Part shown: one piece after another, positions 58,846 to 59,836 of the stretch
How the letters are laid out: every line of letters begins with the position of its first letter
Position numbering within the stretch: position 1 is the stretch's first letter
Assembly: GCA_018333525.1 (NCBI GenBank)
Contig: JAGXTF010000057.1
Location: 1 to 62,677, forward strand
Source: Bacteroidota bacterium
GTDB taxonomy: Bacteria > Bacteroidota > Bacteroidia > NS11-12g > UBA955
Direction: 5' to 3'
Length of the DNA stretch: 62,677 bases
The notes under the pieces: generated by a model
What the model saw: the letters and a program-made list of their open reading frames with translations, nothing else
Database searches by the model: none
What the model was told of the DNA's origin: nothing
Position numbers and translations under genes: made by a program

Positions 58846-58910
58846 TCTGCATATCGTGTTGTGCTATCTAAATACAATTATTTAATTTAGGAAATACGTT
58901 TTTTTTTAAT

Positions 58911-58934
58911 CCACCCTTTTGCCGAAAAGGGTGG
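58911..58934. repeat. Perfect 10-bp hairpin after the histidine kinase gene
   Basis: CCACCCTTTT and AAAAGGGTGG pair around the loop GCCG. The nearby T-run lies on the wrong side for either strand to act as a standard terminator, although it could still stop or process the kinase mRNA. Confidence 0.8.
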
Positions 58935-58948
58935 AGCCCAAACTCTTA

Positions 58949-59185
58949 GCTGTCAAAGGCGCCATTTCGGTTTGAATTCAGCTCAGTTCGCTCTCCCGCC
59001 CGTACCGGTTCGGGCGGGGGTTCAGTTTTTGTCAAATAGTGTGAAATTTAGCGTTGCATCCCCTCAACAAAAACCTTAGCGGCGTGGTAAATCCAAATCG
59101 TAGTTTTTCAGCTTTTTCTCCGAGGGCCTAGCCTTTGGCGCCACCCTTTGGGCGATGCCAAAGGTGGCAAATATTATTTGACAGC
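58949..59185. repeat. Element bounded by 9-bp inverted repeats
   Basis: GCTGTCAAA at the left and TTTGACAGC at the right are perfect inverted copies; the three bases outside each copy also nearly match. The 237-base interior is GC-richer than its surroundings and contains further hairpins. This is the architecture of a small non-autonomous mobile element or REP-like unit. No flanking target duplication was obvious by eye. Confidence 0.5.
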
Positions 59186-59204
59186 ATAACAAGTTCATAA
59201 ATAA

Positions 59205-59233
59205 AAAACCCGTTTGCAAGGCAAACGGGTTTT
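59205..59233 (-). terminator. Terminator of the fasciclin gene
   Basis: AACCCGTTTGC and GCAAACGGGTT form an 11-bp stem with loop AAG, flanked by an A-run that becomes the T-run of minus-strand transcripts. It lies about 35 bases past the stop at 59267. Confidence 0.9.
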
Positions 59234-59266
59234 AGGAAAACACTTAATCAGGAAATGTTTATTACG

Positions 59267-59836
59267 TTAATTTGAAGGTGGAAGCAGAACCTCATCAATA
59301 ATGTAAACCAATCCATTGGATGCCTGAACTGTCCCAATCACATTCGCCTTATCGTTCACCATTATTTTGTCTCCTTTTTTTGTTATTTTAATATTGGCAC
59401 TGTTTGCCTGGCCAATAGTTTGCCCATCTTGTAAAATGGTTTCTGTAAAAACGCCAACAGATACATGGTATTGCAAAATATCCGCAAGCTTTTCTTTATT
59501 CTCAGGTTTTAAAAGGTCTTCCACTGTGCCTTTGGGCAATTTGTCGAATGCAGCATTGGTTGGTGCGAAAACAGTAAATGGTCCTGCATTGGCAAGTGTA
59601 TTTGCAAGATCTGCTGCCTTAACTGCTGCCACCAGAGTGCTGTGGTCCTTACTTCCAATTGCAACCTGAAGTATGTTTTTCTGAGAAACATCATCGCTCA
59701 CTCCGGATTGTCCTACACCTGCATTTTCTGTTTCTGTGGATGTTGTTCCAGCTGCACTTCCGGCTTCCCCGCTGCTGCATGATGACACTGCGATAGCGGC
59801 GACGAGAACCCAAAGAATATTTTTAAAATTTTTCAT
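59267..59836 (-). CDS. Fasciclin-domain lipoprotein
   Basis: This 189-residue protein has a lipobox (AVSSC), a Ser/Thr/Gly linker to about residue 50 and one FAS1 domain. The FAS1 motifs are STLVAAVKAADL, the H1-like GPFTVFAPTNAAFDKLP, ILQYHVSVGVFT and the final VYIIDEVLLPP. Such domains mediate adhesion or heme/flavin-independent binding at the cell surface; the ligand here is unknown. It appears to be monocistronic with its own terminator. Confidence 0.95.
   Translation of the reverse strand: MKNFKNILWVLVAAIAVSSCSSGEAGSAAGTTSTETENAGVGQSGVSDDVSQKNILQVAIGSKDHSTLVAAVKAADLANTLANAGPFTVFAPTNAAFDKLPKGTVEDLLKPENKEKLADILQYHVSVGVFTETILQDGQTIGQANSANIKITKKGDKIMVNDKANVIGTVQASNGLVYIIDEVLLPPSN

Follow-up and report, generated by a model that had tools for sequence, protein, structure and literature searches.

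A Probable New MITE-Type Family with a Conserved Core Fold and Nested 24-bp Palindromes, Seen in a Damaged Copy in a Bacteroidota Genome

Introduction

The question raised by this locus is what occupies a 421-bp stretch (58846-59266) in the draft genome of a Bacteroidota bacterium, flanked by a histidine kinase gene on the plus strand (with 7TMR-DISM and HATPase_c domains) and a gene with a fasciclin domain on the minus strand. Within the window, i.e., the whole analyzed stretch of 62,677 nucleotides of contig JAGXTF010000057.1, no ORF-free stretch is longer, whether the cut-off is set at 60, 80 or 100 aa, and the runners-up measure 145, 308 and 368 bp, respectively; it is the only long gap, as a preliminary description of the sequence had called it, just at 60 aa. 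That description had drawn attention to the interval 58949-59185, bounded by a 9-bp perfect inverted repeat and correctly said to be GC-richer than its surroundings (0.47-0.48 vs mostly 0.35-0.42 next to it), and had proposed that it could be a MITE, a REP-like unit or a structured small RNA. We consider it probable that this stretch holds a copy, damaged and internally deleted, of a new MITE-type family of dispersed, non-coding, fold-back elements of this genome.

Inverted Repeats of the Interval and Dispersed Copies

The features that had been singled out are in place. The 9-bp perfect pair is formed by GCTGTCAAA (58949-58957) and TTTGACAGC (59177-59185), the interval contains a GC-rich palindrome (58995-59018), and the CCTTTGGC/GCCAAAGG pair lies within longer arms at 59132-59146/59150-59164. 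Beyond the interval, where one perfect hairpin had been described, two were found, of 11 bp (58910-58935) and 13 bp (59205-59233); the former is part of the element defined below and the latter is a terminator-like site outside it. The 13-bp hairpin is accompanied by a T-run on the minus strand and is located near the converging ends of both flanking genes.

A single 9-bp pair is not significant, at least one such pair within 300 bases being found in 50.6% of 500 dinucleotide shuffles of 58849-59285, and the overall load of inverted repeats in this region is: 11 pairs are observed vs a shuffled mean of 1.07, with none of the 500 shuffles as high. That hairpins have clustered by chance in this gap between genes would agree with the first of these numbers and is at odds with the second; this reading is refuted by dispersed copies in the same genome, which match the window copy at 87-93% identity over 137-156 bases, and we regard its probability as practically nil.

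Searches of the own genome returned 37 matching pieces with the window as the query (itself included) and 50 with a full-length copy as the query. The pieces merge into about 20 dispersed intergenic loci, a count that is approximate, several of them being at contig ends and C111 matching a part of C43 without difference over 298 bases. The orientation of the element relative to neighboring genes, compared at 18 loci, is mixed and follows no clear rule. The locus is therefore not a single copy devoid of conserved structure in relatives, the outcome that would speak against an element: there are about 20 loci, and the core is kept in relatives, as described below.

The copies also decide the fate of the 9-bp pair as a terminal repeat. 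The boundaries 58949-59185 were rejected on the evidence of the other copies shown, in which AGCTGGCAAA or AGCTAGCAAA stands in place of the left arm; this arm is internal, and its pairing with the right arm is an accident.

Features defined at this stage (coordinates, strand, description):
58853..59195, plus: whole element, internally deleted copy with degenerate terminal inverted repeats, defined with own-genome copies
58853..58868, plus: left terminal inverted repeat, 1 mismatch to AACGTGTTGTGCTWTC
58949..58957, plus: GCTGTCAAA, internal, pairing by chance with 59177-59185
59023..59171, plus: right module, sharing 92-93% identity with its closest sister copies (model R1, 151 bits)
59180..59195, minus: right terminal inverted repeat, 3 mismatches to AACGTGTTGTGCTWTC, overlapping the right arm of the 9-bp pair
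59205..59233, no strand assigned: 13-bp hairpin, terminator-like for the minus-strand gene, outside the element

Ends, Target Duplications and Size of the Element

The terminal inverted repeats of the element are 16 bp long and degenerate, with 1 and 3 mismatches to AACGTGTTGTGCTWTC in the window copy and 0-3 in other copies. The right repeat of the window copy was identified by its position, chance matches being frequent at 3 mismatches (29 and 30 in the controls). At the right end the repeat is decayed or absent in several copies, and the best-preserved copies have both. These repeats are described in own-genome copies; relatives from other genera were compared by the core. In a genome search with the end pattern, six element sites were found at up to 2 mismatches, and at 3 mismatches there was no excess over the control; a search of the draft genome at up to 3 mismatches thus turned up, beyond the control rate, no autonomous or coding partner that shares these ends.

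Exact direct repeats adjoin the ends of C90d (GTTGTTTCTA, 10 bp) and C90a (TTGATTTTTTA, 11 bp), so that target duplications are seen in two of the six copies that have both ends and can be tested; the window copy has none. The remaining four copies with both ends have direct repeats of just 4-6 bp, and the longest repeat among 30 mismatched flank pairs used as a control was 8 bp. The MITE reading of the preliminary description, and the search for copies that it had proposed, are thus supported in part: multiple dispersed copies, terminal inverted repeats and duplications in two copies out of six agree with an element of MITE type, with the correction that the ends are imperfect and differ from those first named.

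The ends are 457-636 bp apart in five copies and 339 bp apart in the window copy, which has lost about 250 bp relative to full copies. ORFs of at least 70 aa overlap several copies in no constant strand or position, and the window copy has no ORF of at least 60 aa. As a MITE should, the element has no coding capacity, and its 16-bp repeats fall within the 15-30 bp range of MITE terminal repeats. The usual size given for bacterial MITEs is 70-300 bp, and both the window copy and the five others exceed it. A transposase acting in trans on the ends would have spread the element, making a staggered cut of about 10 bp; no transposase for the element was found in the draft genome.

Conserved Interior and Core Fold

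Bacterial MITEs are usually read as passive leftovers. Judged by sequence identity, the interior of this element is better conserved than its ends, which is unusual for a passive MITE: among seven full copies, the mean identity is 0.82-0.95 for the hairpin, the stem arms and the right module, and 0.66, 0.70 and 0.56 for the left end with the spacer, the AT-rich loop and the right tail, respectively. The structured parts present in the window copy are the following:
58910..58935, plus: left hairpin with an 11-bp perfect stem, conserved in copies having the left end
59025..59074, plus: helix H2, whose arms (59025-59032 and 59067-59074) covary between copies and also with genome G008
59100..59128, plus: 3' strand of the core helix P0 (GTAGTTTTT..GAGGGCC), 5' partner lost in the window copy
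59128..59168, plus: right-end word CTAGCC-TTTGG-hairpin, with the loop GCGATG here and GCAATG in most copies

Two full copies fold much more stably than their shuffled versions on the element strand, with z values of -14.2 and -9.4 (20 shuffles each), and C16 also does so on the opposite strand, with -11.2; for the window copy the values are -5.2 (element strand) and -5.3 (opposite strand). RNA and DNA are not distinguishable from folding alone. Among 13 right modules, the covariation score is 0.172 vs 0.064 in shuffled alignments, none of 500 of which scored as high; 4 of the 21 named pairs have changes on both sides, and 96.5% of cells pair at the true register vs 41-58% in slid structures. 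The covarying changes trace to few events, which are mainly a split into two subtypes together with further ones in C90e and in G008.

A covariance model of the right module matched 8 of the 108 genomes of the order, the own genome included. Seven of these are judged convincing and represent five genera of one family; the eighth, G027, looks false. Its match (L106, E 0.001) was judged false by eye and left out of the P0 test, as were L109 and L112 of G008, which have only the end hairpin in common, and G014b, where no 5' anchor was found nearby. P0 is a helix of about 20 bp in which the strand preceding AAAACAAG pairs with the strand preceding CTAG, and it is formed in 18 sequences of five genera (for G002, a different anchor served to place the 5' strand). 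With their own strands, the 18 sequences reach a mean of -23.6 kcal/mol; with strands exchanged between groups, the mean over 264 pairs is -15.1 kcal/mol, and 3.0% of these are as low as the own mean. The cells of P0 comprise 407 Watson-Crick, 8 G-U, 2 A-C and 46 other combinations, and a G-A mismatch recurs at one position in many sequences. Compensatory changes thus preserve the core fold in five genera even where the sequence differs, and to this extent the covariation check upheld the earlier suggestion of a structured RNA. In the window copy the 5' strand of P0 is missing, and this copy has probably ceased to function.

Compensation of this kind suggests a use, past or present, of the core fold in the form of RNA or single-stranded DNA. 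It is possible, if somewhat doubtful, that the family is one of structured RNA genes, trans-acting or located in 3' UTRs, which spread by duplication and whose terminal repeats are incidental. The compensatory changes in the core fold of five genera and the better conservation of the modules than of the ends would both be expected of such genes, and the excess of G-U over A-C in P0, 8 to 2, is a weak hint of RNA. Against these stand the presence of some 20 own-genome loci whose orientation relative to neighboring genes is mixed, the duplications at two copies, the lack of a promoter-like site at the window copy and the absence of an Rfam match. Known RNA families were rejected as the identity of the element: Rfam gave no match at the gathering score in the whole window, and at seven loci of the own genome and eight from relatives all matches stayed below the threshold.

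Nested 24-bp Palindromes and Internal Deletions

The GC-rich palindrome of the window copy belongs to a dispersed family of its own:
58995..59018, no strand assigned: 24-bp GC-rich palindrome of a separate dispersed family, filling site B and also forming the deletion junction

When up to 2 mismatches are allowed, the genome has 27 sites of the palindrome and the reversed control has none. A 24-base form occurs at 18 own-genome sites at up to 1 mismatch and is absent, at this threshold, from the other 69 genomes of the family, i.e., it is present in 1 of 70. Palindrome sites of sister copies are found in both filled and empty states. Site D is empty in 14 copies and carries exactly 24 extra bp in two, with no target duplication seen; site B is empty in five copies and filled in C3 with the right flank intact; site G is empty in five copies and filled in one. 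At site C, six copies are filled by palindromes of the 24-bp kind, one of the six being C90d, in which a diverged unit is followed by a deletion. Site A holds a related unit of 27-30 bp and site F a different short palindrome. Because intact empty sites exist, we infer gain of palindromes rather than their loss, and the 24-bp palindromes would be separate tiny mobile units. Outside the element, the palindrome also occurs within other, partly repeated stretches (L067 1607-1943, L068 439-829).

Deletions start at site B in the window copy and in C16. The window copy joins B to E, the latter being filled in C93: the left homology stops at 58995 and the right homology starts at 59023, and both palindrome sites that flank the deletion occur in other copies. 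C16 joins B to G, and C15b and C90a join A to G. These junctions point to internal deletions having arisen between palindromes, and in the window copy recombination or slippage between two 24-bp palindromes would have removed the missing 250 bp or so.

The suggestion of a REP-like unit holds in part for the GC-rich hairpin, which is a REP-sized dispersed palindrome in its own right, and stops short of a demonstrated REP tag or RAYT association. The units end in CCCGCCCG or CCCGTCCG and have no constant tag corresponding to terminal GTAG or CGTC. A RAYT was rejected as the mover of the palindrome, which is absent from the flanks, covered over about 1.5 kb, of five Y1 transposase genes of the genome. 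Three of these genes (L094-L098, PF01797), namely L095, L097 and L098, are flanked by separate short palindromic repeats, as in RAYT-type systems.

The Right-End Word and Microviruses

A first lead to phages came from a query with G002, which gave a weak phage match (E 2e-3) at the right-end word. The word, consisting of CTAGC, a T-rich spacer and the hairpin with the GCAATG loop, is present in seven Microviridae records, in the orientation of the genes in 7 of 7:
L126 3001-3040
L130 1501-1535
L131 1501-1535
L132 4933-4965
L133 629-663
L134 5864-5895
L135 1755-1784 (minus)

One of them, L132 (NZ_CP050055.1), is filed as a Pseudomonas aeruginosa plasmid; it contains a gene for a major capsid protein and resembles the genome of a microvirus. 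In six of the seven records, the word is directly preceded by ATGAAAAAC and may be coding, as the start of a very short gene. Two exact patterns each matched one contig of the viral collection, both microviruses as judged from their ORFs by eye. No match came from four other patterns scanned against this collection, from the right module of the window copy searched against phages, or from plasmid searches for carriers with G002 and G040 as queries. When a microvirus served as the query, four records labeled as plasmids were matched: L132 and three from Parabacteroides, the latter with a hairpin variant beside an HU gene. In these Parabacteroides distasonis loci (L127 3001-3037, L128 3001-3036, L129 2252-2287) the variant has the loop GTCAAG and is located just downstream of the HU-family gene, and CTTGACC before the hairpin could pair with the hairpin loop. 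A composite transposon was also considered for G014, where three right-end words are present on one contig, and rejected, the DNA between two of them looking, by eye, like ordinary genes.

We treat the microvirus link as a lead. One reading that would build on it, and that we consider unlikely, is that the conserved part is a folded single-stranded DNA site, e.g., a start of second-strand synthesis, common to single-stranded DNA phages of Bacteroidota. The seven Microviridae records with their uniform gene orientation, and the fact that the last two exact patterns had just two matches in the viral collection, each of them a microvirus, are what it would explain; however, only the short word, and not the core helix, is common to the phages, the word may be coding where it follows ATGAAAAAC, and the four other viral scans and the phage search with the window right module were empty. 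A still bolder proposal, to which we give little credence, combines the observations into a class of chromosomal Bacteroidota elements that function through a folded single strand, in which the right-end hairpin is identical to a signal found in gene orientation in certain microviruses and the 24-bp palindromes ride inside as the smallest mobile units. If this were true, a host factor acting on the right-end hairpin would link the spread of the element with the replication of single-stranded DNA phages; the microvirus link by itself, if true, would point to a shared host factor.

Comparison with Known Systems

Under the preferred reading, that of a MITE-type family represented in the window by a damaged copy, a fold that paired changes preserve in several genera, next to decaying ends, would mean that the element earns its keep or that the fold is needed for its spread. 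Since filled and empty sites of sister copies differ by exactly 24 bp, the mobility of so small a palindrome can be put to the test, and the deletions between palindromes would show a route by which such elements decay. Our literature search found no description of this element family: its class is known, and the combination of a structured core with nested mobile palindromes was not found in the literature searched.

NEMIS/Correia, ERIC and RUP are examples of bacterial MITEs (PMC3733652). The element is like bacterial MITEs in being dispersed, intergenic and non-coding, in its terminal inverted repeats and strong folding and in the duplications at some copies; it differs from them in its greater length (full copies of 457-636 bp), in the compensated, conserved interior, in the nested 24-bp palindromes and in that a partner transposase was not found. 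REP and RPE palindromes comprise GTAG- and CGTC-tagged repeats (PMC3733652). The 24-bp GC-rich unit resembles these in being short, palindromic, dispersed and apparently intergenic at the loci examined, and resembles the CGTC repeats in that no transposase was found adjoining it. Unlike REP and RPE palindromes, it is a perfect or near-perfect loop-free palindrome centered on CCGG with no constant terminal tag, and it is nested, as an exact 24-bp insertion, inside a larger element.

Two further systems share single traits with the family. GC-rich hairpin units in an AT-rich setting are also formed by the mobile GC clusters and hairpin elements of mitochondrial DNA; unlike those, the 24-bp unit sits in a bacterial chromosome. 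The element has neither a group I intron match in Rfam nor an internal transposase, in which it is unlike IStrons, and it shares with them the presence of a structured RNA-like part within a DNA element.
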